Below are positions 21,662 to 58,343 of a stretch of 64,000 nucleotides of DNA, in pieces. Position 1 is the first letter of the stretch. Each line of letters begins with the position of its first letter. The DNA is from Granulimonas faecalis. GTDB lineage: Bacteria > Actinomycetota > Coriobacteriia > Coriobacteriales > Atopobiaceae. The notes below the pieces were generated by a model. It saw only the letters and a program-made list of their open reading frames with translations. It had not been told where the DNA came from and made no database searches. The stretch lies in NCBI RefSeq assembly GCF_022834715.1, contig NZ_BQKC01000001.1:904501-968500 (forward strand), given 5' to 3'. The translations under genes and the position numbers were made by a program.

Positions 21662-23760
21662 ACGCCTTCGAGGAGCACTTCACCTACGAGCCCGTGGGGG
21701 CCGAGCCCGGCCCCGAGGTGGGCCACCCGGGCATGACCATCGCCTTCGTGGGCAACCCCAACTGCGGCAAGACCACGCTCTTCAACGCCTACACGGGCTC
21801 CAACCTCAAGACCGCCAACTGGCCCGGCGTCACCGTGGAGGGCAAGGAGGGCTCGGCCCGGTTCGAGGGCTACGAGGTGCGCCTTGTGGACCTCCCGGGC
21901 ACCTACTCCCTCACGAGCTACACCATGGAGGAGGAGGTCGCCCGCAACTACGTGCTCTCCGGCGACGCGGACGTCATCATCGACGTCGTGGACGCCTCGT
22001 CCCTCGAGCGCTCCCTCTACCTCACCCTGCAGCTCCTCGCCCTCGGAAAGCCCGTGGTCGTGGCCCTCAACATGATGGACGTCGTGGCCAAGCGCGGCAT
22101 GGAGATCGACGTTCACCGCCTCTCGGAGACCCTGGGCGCACCCGTCATCCCCGTGAGCGCCCGCAGGCGCGAGGGCCTGCAACCGCTCCTCCACGCCGCC
22201 TACCACCACCGCGGCGTGGCCCACGACCCCATCCAGCACTTCCACCCGGTGGACGACGGCATGGCCGAGAAGCACGCCGAGAACGTCATGGTCTACTCCC
22301 GCGACCTCGAGGGGCGCATCGACGCCGTGCAGGCGGCCTTCGAGGGGCGCTACCCCGACGTCGCGAACCCCCGCTGGTATGCGACGAAGCTCCTGGAGGG
22401 CGACGTCGCCGTGCGGCGCGACTACCCCCTGGACGTCCCCGAGCTCGAGGAGGACCTCGAGGAGCGCTTCATCGCCGAGCGCTACGACTTCATCAGCGGC
22501 GTGGTGGCCGAGTGCGTGTTCAACCGCGAGCGCCGTGCCGAGGCGACGGACCGCGCCGACCGCGTCCTGACGAGCCGGGTGTGGTCCATCCCCGTCTTCC
22601 TCCTCATCATGGCCGCGGTGTTCGGGCTCACGTTCGTCCTCGGCGACGCCGTGAAGGACGTCTTCCAGACATGGCTCGACCTTTTCAACGGCTGGGTGGC
22701 CGACGGCCTTGCGGCCCTCGGCGCCTCCGAGGCGGTGGTGAGCCTCGTGTGCGACGGCGCCATCTCCGGCGTGGGCACCGTGCTCACGTTCCTGCCCAAC
22801 ATCTTCATCCTCTTCTGCGCCCTGGCGTTCCTCGAGGACTCCGGCTACATGAGCCGCGTGGCCTACGTCATGGACGGCATCATGGGCGCCCTCGGGCTCT
22901 CCGGCCGCGCGTTCATCCCCATGATCCTGGGCTTCGGCTGCACCGTCCCCGCCATCATGAGCTCGCGCACCCTTGAGAGCATGCGCGACCGGCGCCGGGT
23001 CATGCTCGTCACGCCGTTCATGAGCTGCTCGGCGAGGCTCCCCATCTACGTGCTGCTGAGCGGCATGTTCTTCGGGCAGTGGGCCGGCCTCGCGGCCTTC
23101 TCCATGTACGTGCTCGGCATCGTCGTGGCGCTCCTCGTGCTGCTGGTGCTCAAGGTCATGGGCCACGCCACCGACGACGAGGGCGGCATGCTCCTCATCG
23201 AGCTCCCCGAGTACAAGATGCCGGACGCCTACACCGTGTGGGTGTACGTGAAGGACAAGGTCCTCGACTATCTGGAGCGCGCCGGCACCGTCATCTTCGC
23301 GGCGTCCGTGATCATGTGGGTGCTCCTGAACTTCGGGGCCACGGGCTACGTTGGCGAGAACGTGGACGGGTCGTTCGCCGCCGTCGTCGGCCGCGCCATC
23401 GCGCCTGCGCTGGCACCCTTCGGCTCCGGCGACTGGCGCCTCGCCGCGGCGCTCCTCGCCGGCATCTCCGCCAAGGAGGTCGTGGTCTCCAGCCTCTCCG
23501 TGCTGTTCGGCGTGAGCGGCACGGCCGTGGGCACGGCGGCCCTCCACGACGCCCTGCTGGGCATCGGGTTCGGCCCGGCCAACGCCCTGGCGTTCATGAC
23601 GTTCTGCCTGCTCTACGTGCCCTGCATCGCCACGATCGCCACCATCAGGAGCGAGAGCGGCTCGTCGCGCTACGCCCTGTTCGCGGTGGTGTTCCAGCTG
23701 GCAGTGGCCTGGGTGGTGGCCTGGCTCGTGTTCCTGGTGGCCGGGTCGCTGCTGGGCTGA
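21658..23760 (+). CDS. feoB: ferrous iron transporter FeoB
   Basis: This 700-residue inner-membrane Fe(II) transporter has an N-terminal G domain with G1 'GNPNCGKTT', the switch region 'TANWPGVTVEG', G3 'DLPGTYSL' and G4 'NMMD'. A helical spacer follows, then two Gate-type membrane repeats ('GFGCTVPAIMSSRTLES' and 'LLAGISAKEVVVSSLSVLFG'). The first Gate carries the conserved Cys of the family. The start overlaps feoA, giving translational coupling. FeoAB is the main route for ferrous iron in anaerobic hosts. No clear iron-regulator box could be identified upstream of feoA. Confidence 0.97.
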   Translation: MNAFEEHFTYEPVGAEPGPEVGHPGMTIAFVGNPNCGKTTLFNAYTGSNLKTANWPGVTVEGKEGSARFEGYEVRLVDLPGTYSLTSYTMEEEVARNYVLSGDADVIIDVVDASSLERSLYLTLQLLALGKPVVVALNMMDVVAKRGMEIDVHRLSETLGAPVIPVSARRREGLQPLLHAAYHHRGVAHDPIQHFHPVDDGMAEKHAENVMVYSRDLEGRIDAVQAAFEGRYPDVANPRWYATKLLEGDVAVRRDYPLDVPELEEDLEERFIAERYDFISGVVAECVFNRERRAEATDRADRVLTSRVWSIPVFLLIMAAVFGLTFVLGDAVKDVFQTWLDLFNGWVADGLAALGASEAVVSLVCDGAISGVGTVLTFLPNIFILFCALAFLEDSGYMSRVAYVMDGIMGALGLSGRAFIPMILGFGCTVPAIMSSRTLESMRDRRRVMLVTPFMSCSARLPIYVLLSGMFFGQWAGLAAFSMYVLGIVVALLVLLVLKVMGHATDDEGGMLLIELPEYKMPDAYTVWVYVKDKVLDYLERAGTVIFAASVIMWVLLNFGATGYVGENVDGSFAAVVGRAIAPALAPFGSGDWRLAAALLAGISAKEVVVSSLSVLFGVSGTAVGTAALHDALLGIGFGPANALAFMTFCLLYVPCIATIATIRSESGSSRYALFAVVFQLAVAWVVAWLVFLVAGSLLG

Positions 23761-24809
23761 GCGGGCCGCAGCCTGTGCGTGGGGGAGGGTCTGTCCGACG
23801 GGGGCAGGCCCTCCCTATCTGTGCCGCCGTCCCGGTAGGCCTCAGGGACGAACGTCCAGGCGGTGTCGACGGACGGGTCGAGCTCCGGCAGCCCCTGCCA
23901 GAGGCGCTTGGGCATGAGGTGCACGCGGAGGTCGTAGCCGCGCTGGTCCCTGCCACGGCCGGGGAGGGACACGGCGTCGTAGAAGCCCTTCCAGAGGGCG
24001 CGGACGTAGGCCTCCTCGCGGTGGGTGTCGTCCAGCCTGCGGCACGCCTCGCGCGCCGCCTCGCCGTCGAGGCGCACGAGGGCGAGGCGGCCGCCCTCGT
24101 GCAGAACGGCCGAGCCGTGGGCCGGGTCGACGATGCAGAACCGCTCGGTGCCCATGCGGCGGCGGAAGTGCCCGGCCACGAGGGGCACGACGTCCGCCTT
24201 GGGGCGGTAGACGGCCAGGTACTCGCCAGTGGACAGACGCGAGAACCGGATGAACTGGCGCGCGTGCTCGCACTCGCCGGCGGCGGCCGTGGCGAGTTCC
24301 TCGGCCCGGGCGATGGCCGGGTCGCTGTTGTGGGTGCCCACGGCCGGCCCCCAGGTGAAGCCGCCGCGGAGGTAGCGGTGCAGGGCCTCCGCCATGTCGG
24401 GTTCGTCCACCATGGACGCCACGAGGCTCACGAGGTGCCGCGGGGAGTGCACGTAGCGGGGCAGGCCGCGCCCGGAGGCCATGGGGGCCGTGGCGGCGAG
24501 GAAGCCGTCCAGGACCCGCTGGGCCACGGCGGGGTCCGTCCCCACGGCGGCGGTCGCCTCCCCGAGCCGGGGCTGCCCGGCACCCTCCGCCTGCAGGCGC
24601 ACGGCGTCGGGGCGCAGCCGGGCCAGGTAGGCGGCGCCCACGGCCGTGAGCACGCCCTCGGCGCTGGCCTCGCACGAGAGGCAGAGCGGCCCCCGGGCCC
24701 CGAGGGCCGCTAGGTCGCGGAGCACCTCCGGGGGCAGGGTGGCCTCAGAACAGGGCGAGCTGCCCCTCGGCGGCGCGGCGGGTGCGGTTGTAGCGGGAGC
24801 CTCGGGCAT
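23670..24809 (-). CDS. TIGR03915-family putative DNA metabolism protein
   Basis: This protein has up to 379 residues. The family core runs from about 'LCLSCEASAEGVLTAVGAAY' to 'MPKRLWQGLPELDP', with 'RFSRLSTGEYLAVYRPKADV' (in two parts) and 'FCIVDPAHGSAVLHEGGRL' between. This family nearly always sits next to a TIGR03916 radical SAM protein, as here; the two are thought to act together in an undefined DNA modification or repair reaction. The start is uncertain. The ATG at 24809 has an upstream GGAGAAGG and overlaps the radical SAM gene by 65 bp, and no better site was found inside. The last 30 or so codons run antisense into the 3' end of feoB and are low-complexity, so the true C-terminus may differ. 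Confidence 0.8.
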   Translation of the reverse strand: MPEAPATTAPAAPPRGSSPCSEATLPPEVLRDLAALGARGPLCLSCEASAEGVLTAVGAAYLARLRPDAVRLQAEGAGQPRLGEATAAVGTDPAVAQRVLDGFLAATAPMASGRGLPRYVHSPRHLVSLVASMVDEPDMAEALHRYLRGGFTWGPAVGTHNSDPAIARAEELATAAAGECEHARQFIRFSRLSTGEYLAVYRPKADVVPLVAGHFRRRMGTERFCIVDPAHGSAVLHEGGRLALVRLDGEAAREACRRLDDTHREEAYVRALWKGFYDAVSLPGRGRDQRGYDLRVHLMPKRLWQGLPELDPSVDTAWTFVPEAYRDGGTDREGLPPSDRPSPTHRLRPAQPSSDPATRNTSQATTQATASWNTTANRA

Positions 24810-26124
24810 CGGATACCACCTTCTCCCGTATGAGCTCGGGGTCGGCGGGGCTTCGCGGGTCCCTCTTTCCCCCGCAGGTGAGGAAGTGCCGGGCGCGGCG
24901 CAGGGTGAGCCGCAGGCGCTCGAGGTCGTCGAACCCCAGGTGGTGGCTCCTGCGGGCGCGGCAGATCTTGCGGGCGCCCTCCGGGCCGATGCCCGGCACC
25001 CGCAGGAGCTCCTCCTTGGTGGCCGTGTTGACCTCCACGGGGAACTCGTCGATGTGGGCGAGGGCCCAGGCGAGCTTGGGGTCCACGTCCAGGTCCAGGA
25101 AGGGCGCCTCGGGGCTCACGAGCTCGTCCGCCGTGAATCCGTAGAAGCGCATGAGCCAGTCCGCCTGGTAGAGGCGGTGCTCGCGGCGCAGGGGCACCGG
25201 CGTCTCGGGGTGGGGGAGCCGGCCGTCCTCCACCACCGGCATGTAGGCGGAGAAGAACACGCGCTTGAGCCCGTAGGTGGAGTAGAGCGAGGAGGACAGC
25301 TTGAGGATGCGGTTGTCGTCCTCGGGGGAGGCGCCGACGATGAGCTGGGTGGACTGCCCCGCCGGGGCGAACGGGGCCGGGGCGCCGGGCTTGCGGCCGC
25401 CGCGCCTCCGGAGGCCGCCGCGGGCGCCGGGGAGGCCCCTGGGCGCCGGCGGGAGGTCGGGCCTCACCGTCGAGAGGTGCGAGCCGCCGCCCAGGTAGCC
25501 GGGGCCCGTGGCGCCGAGGAGGCGCTCCCGCTCCATGGTGTCCCGGATCTGGCGCATGGGGGAGAGCACCGTGCCCGCGCGCTTCTCGGGGCAGAGGGCC
25601 TCCAGCGACCCCGAGCTGGGGAGCTCGATGTTCACGGAGATGCGGTCCGCCAGCCGTCCCAGGGCGTCGAGAAGCTCGGGGGAGGCGCCGGGGATGGCCT
25701 TGGCGTGGATGTAGCCGTTGAAGCGGTGCTCCTCTCGGAGGAGCCGGAGGACCTCGATCATGCGCTCGCACGTGCGGTCGGCCCCGCCGAGCACCCCGGA
25801 GCTCAGGAAGAGCCCCTCGATGTAGTTGCGGCGGTAGAAGTCCATGGTGAGCTGCGCGAGCTCCGCCGGCTCGAACGTGGCCGTGGCGTGGGGGTTGGAG
25901 CGGCGGTTGACGCAGTAGGCGCAGTCGTAGGAGCAGGCGTTGGACATGAGCACCTTGAGCAGGGTCACGCAGCGGCCGTCCGGCGTGAAGCTGTGGCAGC
26001 ACCCCGCGGCGCTCGCGGCGCCGAGGGACCCCTCCCGCGGCCCGCGGTCCACGCCCGACGACGTGCAGGCCGCGTCGTACTTGGCGGCGTCCGCCAGTAT
26101 GGTGAGCTTAGAGAGGGTGTCCAC
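24745..26124 (-). CDS. TIGR03916-family radical SAM protein, putative DNA modification/repair
   Basis: This 459-residue radical SAM enzyme has the [4Fe-4S] motif 'CSYDCAYC' (CX3CX2C), the family opening 'KLTILADAAKYDAACTSSG' and a C-terminal helix-hairpin-helix ('ATKEELLRVPGIGPEGARKI') of the DNA-binding type. Between the barrel strands it has a Gly/Pro/Arg-rich insertion (about residues 215-250) that looks like a disordered loop. The ATG start matches the family N-terminus. A GAACGGGTGTTC palindrome lies between the likely -10 and the start, suggesting LexA/SOS control. It is upstream of, and overlaps, its TIGR03915 partner. The reaction is unknown. Confidence 0.9.
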   Translation of the reverse strand: MDTLSKLTILADAAKYDAACTSSGVDRGPREGSLGAASAAGCCHSFTPDGRCVTLLKVLMSNACSYDCAYCVNRRSNPHATATFEPAELAQLTMDFYRRNYIEGLFLSSGVLGGADRTCERMIEVLRLLREEHRFNGYIHAKAIPGASPELLDALGRLADRISVNIELPSSGSLEALCPEKRAGTVLSPMRQIRDTMERERLLGATGPGYLGGGSHLSTVRPDLPPAPRGLPGARGGLRRRGGRKPGAPAPFAPAGQSTQLIVGASPEDDNRILKLSSSLYSTYGLKRVFFSAYMPVVEDGRLPHPETPVPLRREHRLYQADWLMRFYGFTADELVSPEAPFLDLDVDPKLAWALAHIDEFPVEVNTATKEELLRVPGIGPEGARKICRARRSHHLGFDDLERLRLTLRRARHFLTCGGKRDPRSPADPELIREKVVSDARGSRYNRTRRAAEGQLALF

Positions 26125-26138
26125 GCCGCCTCCTGGTA

Positions 26139-26165
26139 GAACGGGTGTTCCTTCTCCTCAGTATA
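26139..26165 (-). promoter_or_regulatory. SOS-type (LexA) box and -10 for the radical SAM gene
   Basis: A perfect GAAC-N4-GTTC palindrome (26139-26150) is the core of the LexA operator known from Bacillus and Actinobacteria. On the minus strand TATACT (26165-26160) lies 9 bp before it, so a repressor bound here would cover the start of transcription. It is 15 bp from the start codon of the TIGR03916 gene. Confidence 0.6.
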
Positions 26166-26193
26166 GCAGGGGCAAACGGATGTTCGGCCGCGA

Positions 26194-26829
26194 TCAGAAC
26201 TCGGCGAACCTCGGCCCGTGCACCACGCAGAGGTCCCGCCCGCTGGCGAGCTCCGTGACCTTGGCGCGGAACGCCTCCTCCTCGCCGGCGCGGAAGTCGC
26301 AGGTGAGCTGCACCTCGTCGGTGAAGATCTGGCCCACCACCTTGCCGCCGGCGTCTCTGGCCATGCGTCGCACCTGGTCGTACCAGGCGTAGGGGATGCA
26401 GCAGGCGACGCGGGTCACGGGCCGCATCTCCACCACGATCCCCTGGGAGCGGGCTTCCTCCACGGCGCCCGCCACGGCGCCGCCGTAGGCGCGCACCAGC
26501 CCGCCGGGCCCCAGGAGCGTGCCGCCGAAGTAGCGGGTGGTCACCGCGCAGACGTCGGCCAAGCCGGCCCCGCGGAGCGCGTCGAGGGAGGGGAGGCCCG
26601 AGGTCCGCTGGGGCTCGCCATCGTCGCTCGCGCGCTCCTTGCCCGAGGCCAGCACCCAGGCCGGCACGTGGTGGCGGGCGTCGTGGTGGAGGGCGCGCAC
26701 CTCGTCGACGAACCCCTCGGCCTCGGCCTCCGTCTCCACGTGGCGCAGGGCGGCGATGAAGCGGCTCTTGCGGTCAACGAGCTCGAAGACGGCCTCGGTT
26801 TCGGGTTTCAGGGTGAGATAGGTCTTCAC
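26194..26829 (-). CDS. YigZ/IMPACT family protein
   Basis: This 211-residue protein has the UPF0029 N-terminal signature: 'KSRFIAALRHVETEAEAEGF', 'HHDARHHVPAWVL', 'ERASDDGEPQRTSGLPSL' and 'VTTRYFGGTLLGPGGLVRAYGGA' in two parts. A C-terminal DUF1949 domain follows. Eukaryotic IMPACT modulates GCN2 and bacterial members are of unknown function, possibly RNA- or ribosome-associated. The GTG at 26829 is chosen because GAGGAG lies 7 bp before it and the family N-terminus follows directly. It is divergent from rnpB. Confidence 0.9.
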   Translation of the reverse strand: MKTYLTLKPETEAVFELVDRKSRFIAALRHVETEAEAEGFVDEVRALHHDARHHVPAWVLASGKERASDDGEPQRTSGLPSLDALRGAGLADVCAVTTRYFGGTLLGPGGLVRAYGGAVAGAVEEARSQGIVVEMRPVTRVACCIPYAWYDQVRRMARDAGGKVVGQIFTDEVQLTCDFRAGEEEAFRAKVTELASGRDLCVVHGPRFAEF

Positions 26830-26865
26830 GGGGCGCTCCTCGGGGTGTCGTCGGTCTGGTGCAAT

Positions 26866-26873
26866 GCTATACT
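26866..26873 (+). promoter_or_regulatory. extended -10 promoter of rnpB
   Basis: TGCTATACT is an extended -10 element (TGN plus TATACT at 26868-26873) 8 bp before the first base of the P1 helix of RNase P RNA. No clear -35 is seen, which is usual for extended -10 promoters. Confidence 0.6.
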
Positions 26874-26880
26874 GCTTGGT

Positions 26881-27238
26881 CGCGAAGCGGGCCGGACGGC
26901 CGCGCCCCCTCTCCGGGGGTGAGGAAAGTCCGGGCTCCATAGGGCAAGATGCCGGCTAACGGCCGGGCGGAGCGATCCGACGGAAAGTGCCGCAGAAAAG
27001 AAGACTCCCACTGGCCCGCAAGGGTTAAGGGAAAAGCTGAAACGGTGGTGTAAGAGACCACCAGCACCCCGGCAACGGGGTGGCTTGGTAAACCCCATCC
27101 GGAGCAAGCGCAAATAGGAACGCCATGGGTTGGCCCGACCCGCGTTCGGGTTGCGCGCGAGAGAAGGACCGCGGCGACGCGGCCTCGAGATAAATGGTCG
27201 TCTATTACAGAACCCGGCTTACAGGCCCGCTTCGCACC
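26881..27238 (+). ncRNA. rnpB: RNase P RNA, class A
   Basis: This is the catalytic RNA that removes tRNA 5' leaders. The P1 helix is a 12-bp pairing of 26882-26893 with 27224-27235. The universal core elements are present: 'GAGGAAAGTCCGGGCTCC' near the 5' end, 'AGGGTTAAGGGAAAAGC' in the specificity domain, and the 3' core 'GAGATAAATGGTCGTC' with 'ACAGAACCCGGCTTA'. The length is about 355 nt. It lies between a divergent yigZ-like gene and a convergent HAD gene, as in several Actinobacteria. Confidence 0.97.
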
Positions 27239-52322: not shown

Positions 52323-52342
52323 GAACAGATGTACGCTATACT
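52323..52342 (+). promoter_or_regulatory. -10 of the recombinase gene with an imperfect SOS-type box
   Basis: TATACT (52337-52342) is a good -10 hexamer. GAACAGATGTAC (52323-52334) lies just before it and differs by one base from GAACN4GTTC. The mismatch makes LexA control uncertain. Confidence 0.35.
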
Positions 52343-52413: not shown

Positions 52414-53028
52414 ATGGACCACCGTTCCTTCGGCTACGCGCGCGTGTCGTCCGCAGACCAGAACCTCGACCGCCAGCTTGACGCCTTCGCGGAGCTGGGG
52501 CTCGACGCCGTGTACGAGGACAAGGCCAGCGGCAAGGACTTCGACCGCCCGGGGTGGCGCCGTCTCAAGCGGCGGCTCAGGGCGGGCGACGTCCTCTACG
52601 TGCTGAGCATCGACCGCATCGGCCGCAACTACGACGAGATAATCGCGGAGTGGCGCGAGCTCACGCGCGACAGGGGCGTGGACATCGTGGTGCTCGACAT
52701 GCCGCTGCTGGACACGCGCTCGGACGCCGAGGGCGTCACGGGCGCCTTCATCTCGGACATCGTTCTCCAGCTCCTCGCCTACGTGGCCCATCTCGAGAGG
52801 GAGAAGATCCGCGAGCGGCAGGCCCAGGGCATCGCCGCCGCACGGGCCCGCGGCAAGCACCTCGGGCGCCCCAGGATCGCGCGCCCCGACTGCTACGAGG
52901 CCGTGAGGGAGGAGTTCCTCCGCGGCGACCTTACCCGCAGGCAGGCGGCCCGTCGCCTCCAAGTGAGCGTCTCGACCTTCGACCGTTGGAGGGCCGAGGA
53001 CGGTGCCTGCGCCCAGACGGCCGGTTGA
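52414..53028 (+). CDS. small serine recombinase, DNA invertase/resolvase type
   Basis: This 204-residue recombinase has the N-terminal catalytic domain with the nucleophile Ser12 in 'GYARVSSADQN', the conserved 'LDRQLDAF', 'SIDRIGRNYDEI' and 'VVLDMPLLDTR'. The E helix 'AHLEREKIRERQAQGIAAAR' follows, then a C-terminal helix-turn-helix ('DLTRRQAARRLQVSVSTFDR'). This subclass, with 'DMPLLDTR', belongs to the Hin/Gin/Pin-like invertase group rather than the large serine integrases. It ends about 40 bp before one of two inverted sites and is a candidate to invert the DNA between them. The ATG follows GAGGGGAGGG. No other transposase gene is present. Confidence 0.92.
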   Translation: MDHRSFGYARVSSADQNLDRQLDAFAELGLDAVYEDKASGKDFDRPGWRRLKRRLRAGDVLYVLSIDRIGRNYDEIIAEWRELTRDRGVDIVVLDMPLLDTRSDAEGVTGAFISDIVLQLLAYVAHLEREKIRERQAQGIAAARARGKHLGRPRIARPDCYEAVREEFLRGDLTRRQAARRLQVSVSTFDRWRAEDGACAQTAG

Positions 53029-53237: not shown

Positions 53238-56200
53238 GTGGGAGAGAGCCAGGTCAACCTATCTGTCCGCGAGGTCTTCGACCGTATCGTCGCGGAGTCC
53301 GTCAACAAAAAGGACCAGGGCACCGCCTGGGAGCGGGCCGTCAAGTTCTTCCTTGAGAACGACCCGCTCTATGCCGACAGGTTCGACGGCGTCTGGATGT
53401 GGGCCGACGCCCCCACCAACAACGGCAAGCAGGACGTGGGCATCGACCTCGTGGCCCGTGACGCCAAGACCGGCGAGTACTGGGCCATCCAGGCCAAGTG
53501 CTACACGGACGCCGCCTTGTCCGAGGGCTCCGTGGCCACCTTCTTCATGCAGGCCACGGAGGACGTCTACACCTACCGGGTCCTTGCGGACACCGCCGTA
53601 AAGCTCACCAAGAACCTCGAGGCCTACATCAACGAGCACGACAACGTCGTGCGCATCGGCCTCGACGACATCGAGCGGTCCAACCTCCCGTGGCAGGACT
53701 TCTACACCAACGGCATGCACCTCACCTGCGAGGAGGTGCGGCAGGGCCGCGAACGCCTGGTCTTTGAGCCCCGCAAGCATCAGCGCAGGGCCATCGACGC
53801 CGTCAAGGCCGAGTTCGAGACGGCCGACCGCACCACCCTCGTCATGGCCTGCGGCACCGGCAAGACCCTCACGGCCCTGCGCCTGGCCGAGGAGCTCGTG
53901 CCAGGCGGCACGGTGCTCTTCCTCGCCCCGTCCATCAGCCTCGTGGCCCAGTCCATGCGCGACTGGGCCGAGCAGGTGCGCGGCCGTCTCAACTCCTACG
54001 TGGTGTGCTCCGACCCCAAGGCGTCGAGCCTGGGCAAGGGGGACCCGGCCGAGGTGGCCGAGTCCTACGGCACCCTCTCCATGGTGCCGTATCCCGCCAC
54101 CACCAACTCGGGCCTTCTGGCCTCGCGCTTCCGCGCCGACCCCGGCGCCCTCAACGTCGTCTTCTCCACCTACCAGTCCATCGACGTCATCCATGAGGCC
54201 CAGGAGGCGGGCCTGCCCTCCTTCGACCTCGTGATCTGCGACGAGGCCCACCGCACCACGGGCCGCATGCACGGCGAGGACGGCAAGGCCGACGAGACCG
54301 CCTTCGTGCGCGTCCACGACAACGCCTGGATCGACGCCCGGCGCCGCCTCTACATGACGGCCACGCCCCGGGTCTACCAGACCAAGGACGACGAGAAGCT
54401 CGCCGGCATGGCCAAGGTCTCCGACGGACTCGTGGCATCCATGGACAACCCCGAGGTCTACGGCCGCATCTGCCACCGGCTCTCCTTTGGGGCCGCGGTC
54501 AGCCAGGGCCTGCTCACCGACTACAAGCTCGTGGTCATGCAGGTCGACCAGTCCATGATGCCGCGGTCGATCCAGCGCCTCGTCGCCAACAACGCCAACG
54601 AGATCGAGATGCCCGACGCCGCGCGCTTCCTCGGCGTGTGGAAGGCGCTCTTCGACCGCACCCATGCCGGCGGCGTCATGGATATCGAGGGCGCCGGCGT
54701 CGTCGAGGGCGAAGACACCCGTCGCGTGCTGCACCATGCCATCGCCTTCGCGGCCAACATCGCCGCGTCCAAGTTCCTCTCCGACCAGTTCCAGCATGTG
54801 GTGGACGCCTACCTCCAGGGCATGGAGGAGGAGGGCTCGGACTCCGGTGACGGCGGCCGTCACGTGCGGGTGGACGTCAGGCACGTGGACGGCACCATGA
54901 CCGCCCCGGAGCGCGCCGAGCGCCTCGACTGGCTTGCGGGCGGCGATGACGACGACGTCTGCCGAATCCTCTCAAACGCACGCTGCCTCTCCGAGGGCAT
55001 CGACGTGCCAGCCCTCGACGCCGTCGTCTACCTCTCCAAGCGTCGCAGCAAGGTGGACATCATCCAGTCCGTCGGGCGCGTCATGCGCACGTCGGCGGGC
55101 AAGCGCTACGGCTACATCATCATCCCCATCTTCGTGGCGGACGGCAGCGACCCCGGCGAGGCCCTCTCGTCCAGCCGCGAGTACGGCCGCATCTGGGATG
55201 TGGTCTCGGCCCTGCGCTCCCACGACGAGCGCCTGGACGCCAAGATCAACGCCGCCTCCCTGGGCGACTCCGAGCCCCTCAAGGAGGTCGTCGAGTTCGA
55301 GGTGCTCGACCCCTCCCGCCTCGACAGGCCCAAGAACGTCGCGCACCGCGCTCACCGGGTGGGGGAGGACGCCCGCGACGAAGACTACGAGCCCACGGCC
55401 CCCGAGAAGCTCAAGCGCGGCGAGGTGGACCCCAACCAGGGGCAGCTCCTCCTGGGCGAGGACGAGGACTCCCTCCAGGAGATGGCCCGCGCCATCCGCG
55501 CCCAGATCGTGCGCAAGTGCGGCACCAAGATCTACTGGAACGAGTGGGCGGGCGATGTCGGCGCCGTCACCCGGGCCCGGGCCGACCAGATTCGCTCCCT
55601 CGTGGCCGAGCCGGGCGAGGCGGCCGACGCCTTTGACGGATTCCTCACCGGTCTCCGGGACACCCTGAACCCCGACTACGACGCGGACCGCGCCGTGGAC
55701 GTGCTGGCCCAGCACGAGGTGACCAGGCCCATCTTCGACGCCCTGTTCAACCAGGACCAGGTGCGCGAGGGCAACCCCATCGTGGCCGGCATCGACCGCG
55801 CCCTGACGGCCCTCTACGACGCGGGCCTCAGGTCGTCGCTGGACAGCCCCGAGCTCAACGACCTCTACTCCCAGGTGCGTGTCATCGCCTCCCAGGTGCA
55901 GAGCGACGCCGCCAAGCAGAACCTCATCAAGGAGCTCTACAACGACTTCTTTGCCGCGGCCTTCAAGGGCACCGCCGAGGAGCTGGGCATCGTGTACACG
56001 CCCGTGGAGGTGGTGGACGCCCAGCTCCACATGGTGCAGAGGGCCCTTGAGCGGGAGTTCGGCCAGCATCTCGGCGACAGGGGGGTGCACGTCCTCGACG
56101 GCTTTGCCGGCACGGGCACCTACCTCACGCGCCTCATCGAGGACCCCACCCTCATCTCGGACGAGGACCTGCCCTACAAGTACGAGCACGACCTGCACTC

Positions 56201-58343
56201 CAACGAGATCGTGCCCCTGGCTGCCTCCATCATGGACATCAACATCGAGCAGTCCTACCACGCCCGCATGGGCGGGGCCTACAAGCCGTTCCCTGGGGCG
56301 CTCCTCTGTGACACCTTCCAGTTGGGGGAGGAGGACAATGTCATCGACCGGGGGACCTTCCTCGAGAACAGCGAGCGCATCGAGGAGCAGGTGAACACGC
56401 CCATCACGGTCATCGTGGGAAACCCGCCGTACCGTGCCGGTGACAAGAACAACACGGGCAACCAGAACGCGAAGTACAAGACGTTAGATGGGCGCATCGC
56501 CGAGACCTATGCGGCGAATACAAAGGCGAGCAACAAGAACTCCCTCTACAACCACTACATCCGTGCGTTCCGCTGGGCCAGCGACCGCATTGGAGACAGC
56601 GGAATAGTGTGTTTCGTCTCCGGAGGCGGCTGGCTCTCTGGCGAATCTGGTGAAGGGGTCAGGCGTTGTTTCACGGAAGAGTTCAACGATATATATGTAT
56701 ACGATCTACGGGGAAACAAAGAGTTCCGTCGGCTTTCCCGAGAGCAGCTCGATGCCGAGGGCGACAATTTGTTCGGAAGTGGCTCTAAGTCCCCGATAAC
56801 CGTCACGCTCCTGGTTAAGAACCCGGTATCTTCAGGGCGCGGGATAATACATTACCGGAATATCGGGGATGGTCTCTCTCGTCAGGAAAAGTTGGACATT
56901 CTCAAAGAGGCAGTGGGCGTCGACCCCCAGTGGGACACTGTTATTCCCGACCGTCACGGAGACTGGCTCGATCAGCGAGACGACTCTTGGTATGAATTCG
57001 CGCCGATGGGCATCGAGAAGCGTAAGGGTATCCTCGGACTCTTTGATATTTGGTCCTGCGGACTGAAAACACAGAGGGATCCTTGGGCATGGGGCTACTC
57101 AAAGAGCCAGGTCGCCCATCAGATGGCTGAACTCATTGGCAATACCAATGATGCTGTCGATGAGATGAGATGCATGGGCTCAAAGACCGTTCCCAGGGAC
57201 GATAAGCGCTACAGCTGGACGAGGCGCATCGAGGACTATGCCAAGCGGCATATGAATATCGACTACGTTCCGGACTCGGTCGTAGTGGGCTGCTATAGGC
57301 CGTTCTGCAAGCAGTGGGTTTACTACGAGCGGACGATGAACGAAAGGACCTACCAGCAACCCCGCTTTTTCCCGCTCGCCGCAGGCGAGCGGGCGAAAGG
57401 ACCTACCAGCAACCCCAATGCTGCCTCTTTGACAGAGGTGACGGCTGAGGCTGGTATGAAGGGAAAAAGCGGCCGAAATGACCTACCAGCAATGTCCCCT
57501 CACTGTCTCACAAATCTCGAGATATGTATGACCGGCCCAGCTTCGGGACGAGAGTTCTCATGTCTTATATCAGCTCAAGTTCCTGATTTGCACATGCAGA
57601 GCACTTCCCAGTGCTTCCCCCTCTACTGGTACGACGAGCCGTCGGGCGATGGGCTTCTCGGCCGCTCCGAGCCCGTGCGCCACGACGCCATCACCGATGA
57701 ATCCTTGGCCGTGTTCCAGGAGACCTACGGAGACACCTCCATCACCAAGGAGGACATCTTCTTCTACGTCTACGGCCTGCTCCACTCGCCGGAGTACCGC
57801 AAGCGCTTCGCCAACAACCTCAAGAAGGAGCTGCCCCGCATACCGCTCGCCAAGGATTTCCGTGCGTTCGAGCAGGCCGGCCGCAAGCTCGGCGAGCTCC
57901 ATGTGAACTATGAGTCGGTGGAGCCCTGGCCCGTGGAAGAGGCCGGCTGCTCGGAGAACCCCGGACGGACCGAGAAGATGGCCTGGGGCAAGGTGCGCGA
58001 CAAGAAGACCGGCAAGCTCGTCAAGGACTTCACCGTCCTCAAGGTGTCCGACAGCCTCACCCTGCGCGGCATCCCCGAGCGGGCCCAGGAGTACGTGGTC
58101 AACGGCAAGAGCGCCCTTGCATGGCTGGTGGACCGTTACCAGATGAAGGTGGACAAGAAGAGCGGCATCGTCAACGACCCCAACCTCTACGCGCCGGACA
58201 ACCCGCGCTACATCGTAGACCTCGTGGAGTCGGTCATTACGGTGTCCTTGGAGACGCTGGACATCGTTGACTCCCTGCCGACCCTGAACGAGCTGCCGCA
58301 CCCGGCCAACTGGCCGGCAGCCTGGAGCATGGACGCAAAATGA
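53238..58343 (+). CDS. Type ISP single-chain restriction-modification enzyme
   Basis: This 1701-residue protein combines all R-M activities. In order it has an Mrr-like nuclease (about residues 50-100, 'GIDLVARD' and 'IQAKCY'), a superfamily 2 helicase (Walker A 'ACGTGKT' near 205, 'CDEAH' near 334, 'QSVGRVMR' near 612), a coupler, an adenine methyltransferase (motif I 'DGFAGTGTYL' near 955, motif IV 'NPPY' near 1062) and a target-recognition region to the end ('QCFPLYWYDE'). This is the plan of LlaGI/LlaBIII, which translocate along DNA before cutting. The GTG start follows AAGGA, which is partly inside a hairpin (53215-53233). DNA from about 56440 to 57600 is lower in G+C and carries internal repeats. 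Confidence 0.9.
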   Translation: MGESQVNLSVREVFDRIVAESVNKKDQGTAWERAVKFFLENDPLYADRFDGVWMWADAPTNNGKQDVGIDLVARDAKTGEYWAIQAKCYTDAALSEGSVATFFMQATEDVYTYRVLADTAVKLTKNLEAYINEHDNVVRIGLDDIERSNLPWQDFYTNGMHLTCEEVRQGRERLVFEPRKHQRRAIDAVKAEFETADRTTLVMACGTGKTLTALRLAEELVPGGTVLFLAPSISLVAQSMRDWAEQVRGRLNSYVVCSDPKASSLGKGDPAEVAESYGTLSMVPYPATTNSGLLASRFRADPGALNVVFSTYQSIDVIHEAQEAGLPSFDLVICDEAHRTTGRMHGEDGKADETAFVRVHDNAWIDARRRLYMTATPRVYQTKDDEKLAGMAKVSDGLVASMDNPEVYGRICHRLSFGAAVSQGLLTDYKLVVMQVDQSMMPRSIQRLVANNANEIEMPDAARFLGVWKALFDRTHAGGVMDIEGAGVVEGEDTRRVLHHAIAFAANIAASKFLSDQFQHVVDAYLQGMEEEGSDSGDGGRHVRVDVRHVDGTMTAPERAERLDWLAGGDDDDVCRILSNARCLSEGIDVPALDAVVYLSKRRSKVDIIQSVGRVMRTSAGKRYGYIIIPIFVADGSDPGEALSSSREYGRIWDVVSALRSHDERLDAKINAASLGDSEPLKEVVEFEVLDPSRLDRPKNVAHRAHRVGEDARDEDYEPTAPEKLKRGEVDPNQGQLLLGEDEDSLQEMARAIRAQIVRKCGTKIYWNEWAGDVGAVTRARADQIRSLVAEPGEAADAFDGFLTGLRDTLNPDYDADRAVDVLAQHEVTRPIFDALFNQDQVREGNPIVAGIDRALTALYDAGLRSSLDSPELNDLYSQVRVIASQVQSDAAKQNLIKELYNDFFAAAFKGTAEELGIVYTPVEVVDAQLHMVQRALEREFGQHLGDRGVHVLDGFAGTGTYLTRLIEDPTLISDEDLPYKYEHDLHSNEIVPLAASIMDINIEQSYHARMGGAYKPFPGALLCDTFQLGEEDNVIDRGTFLENSERIEEQVNTPITVIVGNPPYRAGDKNNTGNQNAKYKTLDGRIAETYAANTKASNKNSLYNHYIRAFRWASDRIGDSGIVCFVSGGGWLSGESGEGVRRCFTEEFNDIYVYDLRGNKEFRRLSREQLDAEGDNLFGSGSKSPITVTLLVKNPVSSGRGIIHYRNIGDGLSRQEKLDILKEAVGVDPQWDTVIPDRHGDWLDQRDDSWYEFAPMGIEKRKGILGLFDIWSCGLKTQRDPWAWGYSKSQVAHQMAELIGNTNDAVDEMRCMGSKTVPRDDKRYSWTRRIEDYAKRHMNIDYVPDSVVVGCYRPFCKQWVYYERTMNERTYQQPRFFPLAAGERAKGPTSNPNAASLTEVTAEAGMKGKSGRNDLPAMSPHCLTNLEICMTGPASGREFSCLISAQVPDLHMQSTSQCFPLYWYDEPSGDGLLGRSEPVRHDAITDESLAVFQETYGDTSITKEDIFFYVYGLLHSPEYRKRFANNLKKELPRIPLAKDFRAFEQAGRKLGELHVNYESVEPWPVEEAGCSENPGRTEKMAWGKVRDKKTGKLVKDFTVLKVSDSLTLRGIPERAQEYVVNGKSALAWLVDRYQMKVDKKSGIVNDPNLYAPDNPRYIVDLVESVITVSLETLDIVDSLPTLNELPHPANWPAAWSMDAK
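57341..57493 (+). repeat. three short direct repeats and a hairpin inside the R-M recognition region
   Basis: A 23-bp sequence at 57341-57363 recurs exactly at 57394-57416. A third, shorter and slightly altered copy lies at 57474-57492. Between the first two is a perfect 10-bp hairpin (57371-57380 with 57384-57393, loop GCA). The copies are read in three frames (ERTYQQP, KGPTSNP, NDLPAM). The extra 40 or so residues interrupt a region that is normally continuous in Type ISP proteins. Confidence 0.8.

Follow-up and report, generated by a model that had tools for sequence, protein, structure and literature searches.

A perfect GAACN4GTTC palindrome lies directly ahead of a radical SAM gene of the TIGR03916 family, and the question that it raises is whether LexA controls this gene and its TIGR03915 neighbour, a pair annotated as putative DNA repair or modification proteins. 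The original prediction proposed such control from the palindrome and a TATACT hexamer just upstream of it. Both elements were confirmed, but the palindrome claim was understated, in that a second box on the far side of the hexamer had been overlooked. The features are listed here by position in the window, by which we mean the whole 64-kb stretch of DNA analysed.

Two LexA-type boxes bracket the predicted promoter of the TIGR03916 gene

23670-24809, minus strand: TIGR03915/DUF4130 gene, second in the predicted operon, with a putative start (148.9 bits against a cut-off of 112.25; DUF4130, 111 bits)
24745-26124, minus strand: TIGR03916 radical SAM gene, 459 aa, GTG start (570.1 bits against a curated cut-off of 343.5)
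26129-26134, minus strand: Shine-Dalgarno sequence AGGAGG, read from the sequence
26139-26150: LexA-type box 1, GAACGGGTGTTC (minus strand: GAACACCCGTTC), at about +3 to +14 of the predicted transcript; 14.5 bits with a matrix from the genome's own SOS genes
26160-26165, minus strand: -10 element TATACT (plus strand AGTATA), between boxes 1 and 2
26174-26185: LexA-type box 2, AAACGGATGTTC (minus strand: GAACATCCGTTT), at about -21 to -32, in the spacer/-35 region; 15.9 bits with the same matrix
26194-26940, minus strand: YigZ/IMPACT-family gene, upstream of box 2 and taken to lie outside the operon (156.1 bits, below the curated cut-off of 167.95)

Read along the minus strand, the order of elements is GAACATCCGTTT, TGC-TATACT, GAACACCCGTTC, AGGAGG and GTG. 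The TGC at 26166-26168 precedes TATACT and supplies the TG of an extended -10, and transcription of the TIGR03916 gene would start near 26153. The two boxes therefore bracket an extended -10 ahead of the gene and overlap its predicted promoter. A good -35 is absent from this promoter, and a consensus promoter scan misses it for that reason. Box 1 is the sole perfect GAACN4GTTC in the window; box 2 was found in the window scan once one mismatch was allowed.

The boxes resemble the operator of the genome's own SOS genes

The genome encodes LexA, with a single PF01726 match (80 bits) in a 253-aa open frame; a 244-aa LexA-type ORF adjoins the lexA boxes. Upstream of lexA lie two boxes, GAACGTCCGTTT and GAACAGATGTTT, and the operator GAACRNNYGTTY is common to lexA, recA, two Y-family polymerase genes, ruvC and sbcD. 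We derived a matrix from seven boxes of these genes, none of them from TIGR03916. The candidate boxes scored 14.5 and 15.9 bits, similar to the lexA boxes, which scored 13.7 and 17.2 bits when each was left out in turn, although the matrix is not blind, because the seven training boxes were picked from pattern matches. Scores as high as those of the two candidates are expected by chance 0.11 and 0.05 times per 64 kb, and a matrix scan of 10 Mb of simulated sequence returned no pair of boxes within 60 bp. The recA and sbcD boxes outscore both candidates. Elsewhere in the genome, sites that score about as well are found ahead of genes without an evident part in the SOS response, and the pattern GAACNNNNGTTY (GAACN4GTTY) is not enriched genome-wide (37 and 38 matches; the reversed control pattern gave 53 and 49). 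Neither of the genome's two uracil-DNA glycosylase (UDG) loci, considered as LexA targets, has a box with up to one mismatch.

The best-surviving alternative is that the boxes are bound not by LexA but by a different repressor, such as a LexA-like HTH/peptidase protein, whose palindrome is similar. Some relatives do have extra, weaker PF01726 matches, but this genome has only one, and the boxes upstream of its lexA and recA genes share the same consensus. We consider binding by another repressor very improbable.

Paired boxes are conserved within the family and order

We searched 40 genomes, 27 of which had a TIGR03916 match, above the cut-off in 23. These gave 30 matching loci. Five were dropped, two without upstream DNA (L042 and L043) and three with weak, HhH-only matches (L046, L048 and L049), leaving 25 loci including our own. 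Every one of the 25 has at least one box with no more than one mismatch, 23 have at least two boxes within 300 bp, and 18 have a perfect box. The corresponding numbers for 259 control windows from the same loci were 20, 3 and 0. Fisher values for box conservation were 3.7e-23 and 1.8e-28, which overstate independence because the compared genomes are related. For comparison, all 30 lexA loci have at least two boxes.

The arrangement around the promoter recurs as well. The best -10-like hexamer sits between the boxes in 23 of the 26 loci with two boxes within 150 bp; the spacing of neighbouring boxes ranges from 14 to 57 bp, and the -10 tends to remain between them. Among 29 order-level loci, three lack two boxes within 150 bp (two have none and one has a single box).

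These data bear on the reading of box 1 as a chance palindrome with no function. A perfect GAACN4GTTC arises by chance at a mean of 0.43 per shuffled window, with at least one in 33 of 100 shuffles, and the palindrome alone is therefore no proof. However, position, second box, matrix score and conservation combined exceed chance: the pairing of boxes at the promoter, their scores and their occurrence at all 25 loci already contradict this reading, which we regard as having almost no likelihood. Least credible of all is that LexA binds here but mainly governs the YigZ/IMPACT gene, or some function other than the repair operon: the YigZ gene ends just 8 bases from box 2, but with YigZ upstream and in the same orientation, a promoter at this site would point away from it, and in relatives the distance from the boxes to the TIGR03916 start is comparable.

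A model for LexA control of the operon

We conclude that the two boxes are very probably LexA operators, placed on either side of the -10 of the promoter driving a TIGR03916-TIGR03915 operon. The LexA control put forward in the original prediction thus gains support from sequence and comparative evidence alike. Each of the three findings that the prediction named as contrary to it, namely a lack of LexA, use of a different operator and absence of the box from relatives, was looked for and not encountered. In the arrangement that we propose, LexA dimers on the upstream box, in the spacer/-35 region, and on the downstream box, at the transcript start, would block RNA polymerase. Upon DNA damage, RecA-stimulated self-cleavage of LexA would release the operon alongside recA, the Y-family polymerase genes, ruvC and sbcD. 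Binding and repression by LexA, induction by damage, and co-transcription of the two genes are predictions of this model.

Occurrence of the boxes beyond the order

Boxes are also frequent at TIGR03916 loci from a wider set of named organisms. A perfect box is present at 40 of 80 named loci, at least one box at 67 and at least two at 41, compared with 6, 162 and 9 of 1851 control windows. All 14 loci from Coriobacteriia (assigned by title) have at least one box, and 13 have two. The other 66 loci, mostly from Bacillota and including Enterococcus, comprise 53 with at least one box, 28 with two and 13 with none. The top-ranked named relatives are from Atopobiaceae and Olsenella. A TIGR03915 gene is present at 72 of the 80 named loci, always on the same strand as the TIGR03916 gene.

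A different picture emerged from a sample of 197 genomes of the phylum, 16 of them above the TIGR03916 family cut-off. GAACN4GTTC-type boxes were absent from all 11 TIGR03916 loci outside the order in this sample. Of 15 genomes checked, 14 have LexA, 10 of them from outside the order. By eye, the lexA promoters of those ten (L202, L203, L205, L206, L208, L210 and L212-L215) carry TAAACN4GTTTA-like sites. Judged from the lexA promoters, the LexA operator is shifted within Actinomycetota. Two of the TAAACN4GTTTA-like sites often stand in tandem at the -10 of lexA genes outside the order, replacing GAACN4GTTC.

At the TIGR03916 loci outside the order, no TAAACN4GTTTA with one mismatch was found anywhere, and the best upstream site had three mismatches. 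The promoters of these TIGR03916 genes are without either operator; therefore, as far as the sequences of the phylum sample indicate, LexA control of TIGR03916 is a trait of Coriobacteriales and not a family-wide constant.

Predicted chemistry of the gene products

A domain search of the TIGR03916 protein found Radical_SAM and a C-terminal helix-hairpin-helix (HhH) domain, HHH_3. In 41 of 41 sequences the cysteines of its CX3CX2C motif (C64, C68 and C71) do not vary, and neither do the additional cysteines C20, C43 and C52, which lie N-terminal to the motif; C417 is conserved in 95%. A low-complexity stretch at about residues 205-245 had raised the suspicion of a frameshift, which we rejected, as family members align with variable inserts there. 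On the alignment, the protein is intact.

The predicted structure of the TIGR03916 protein (pLDDT 84.3) has a radical SAM fold, and its nearest folds are lipoyl synthase and HydE (Z of about 17; rmsd 3.6 over 226 residues and 2.6 over 218 residues). The conserved C20, C43 and C52, together with C417, hint that the protein may have a second iron-sulfur cluster, like lipoyl synthase. SplB was not among the NCBIfam matches of the TIGR03916 protein to E 0.001, nor among the best 50 structural matches listed for its model, the latter being no proof of absence.

DUF4130 is the sole domain detected in the window's TIGR03915 protein. We scanned 43 TIGR03915 proteins, namely 42 of the 72 found at the named loci and the window's own. 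All 43 contain DUF4130 only, with no uracil-DNA glycosylase domain, and all 43 lack a literal DHH motif. The predicted structure (pLDDT 81.3) resembles RecJ, other DHH-DHHA1 phosphoesterases and Cdc45, with a best Z of 9.2 and an rmsd of 5.8 over 232 residues; the best E-value from Foldseek was 1.2e-3. Because the match is weak, we treat the resemblance to RecJ and the DHH family as a lead only. On this model, TIGR03915 may be a degenerate member of the DHH family. A sequence search against solved structures brought up no more than HhH and radical SAM fragments in the case of the TIGR03916 protein, and no meaningful match in that of TIGR03915.

A radical SAM enzyme with a DNA-binding HhH domain and a DUF4130 partner would be expected to repair or modify damaged DNA. 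More speculatively, and with rather low confidence, we suggest an SOS-induced, UDG-independent repair route, in which a lipoyl-synthase-like radical SAM protein with HhH and a possible second cluster (C20, C43 and C52, perhaps with C417) works with a degenerate, RecJ/Cdc45-like DUF4130 partner and reverses or reworks a lesion chemically in anaerobic gut bacteria.

Other LexA-like sites

The top LexA-like site of the window is GAACAGATGTAC, at 52323-52334 (19.6 bits). It stands directly ahead of GCTATACT and a gene for a serine recombinase (Pfam Resolvase; 52414-53028), which on the sequence is possibly under SOS control. After the recombinase gene comes an ORF of 1701 aa (53238-58343) with the look of a type ISP restriction enzyme. 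According to extracts of PMC3998124, MraZ had been put forward earlier as an SOS candidate of gut bacteria. Further GAACRNNYGTTY sites lie upstream of mraZ (L056, 944-1375), a Zn_peptidase_2 gene (L055, 739-1431), a patatin gene (L072, 1567-2514), an AAA_30/PIF1-like helicase gene (L066, 1519-2916), an HhH-GPD (AlkA-like) glycosylase gene (L067, 806-1390) and a DUF1156 methylase-like gene (L058, 3-1397).

Comparison with known systems

By way of its boxes, a widespread pair of uncharacterised genes becomes linked to the DNA-damage response in Coriobacteriia and, as judged by sequence, also in many Bacillota. DNA damage is a clear condition under which to seek the function of the TIGR03916/TIGR03915 pair, and the boxes can serve as candidate LexA operators in a class of bacteria from the human gut. 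A literature search found no publication on TIGR03916, and the literature searched contained no study joining LexA, SOS and Coriobacteriia; a broader search (Atopobium, Olsenella, Eggerthella, Coriobacteria) gave no LexA among the matches listed. The pair is not named in the main text searched of a paper on the C. difficile LexA regulon (PMC4234289), nor in that of a paper on the gut SOS meta-regulon (PMC3998124).

The Bacteroides and Caulobacter genomes included as controls have a TIGR03916 match, and we take COG4277 to be the TIGR03916 radical SAM/HhH family. Extracts of PMC8565304 describe SOS control of a two-gene COG1573-COG4277 operon, a putative base-excision-repair system, in Bacteroidetes, and cite the same control for Verrucomicrobia and Alphaproteobacteria (Caulobacter). 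An SOS-controlled operon that probably contains this radical SAM family has therefore already been published for Bacteroidetes, and the novelty of the present locus is to that extent smaller than the original prediction implied. As far as those extracts go, the two systems are alike in having LexA-type control of a two-gene putative repair system and differ in the operator, which is GAACRNNYGTTY here and of the Bacteroidetes motifs there (PMC8565304). They differ also in the partner, here a free-standing DUF4130 protein that lacks a UDG domain, in a genome whose own two UDG genes have no nearby box.

DUF4130 itself has been predicted to be a mutagenesis-related enzyme, linked through SOS gene neighbourhoods to SplB-like radical SAM proteins and UDGs (PMC3765255, in extract). 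Our locus shares with that case the DUF4130 family and the tie to radical SAM enzymes and the SOS response. However, whereas the link described in the extracts of PMC3765255 was drawn from gene neighbourhood, here it comes from operator sequence. With respect to the operator, the boxes share the palindromic core, including its four central bases, with Gram-positive SOS boxes as represented by the S. venezuelae LexA consensus tCGAAC-N4-GNNCGa (PMC9380542, in extract). Compared with that consensus, the boxes described here have less strict flanks and often end in T.
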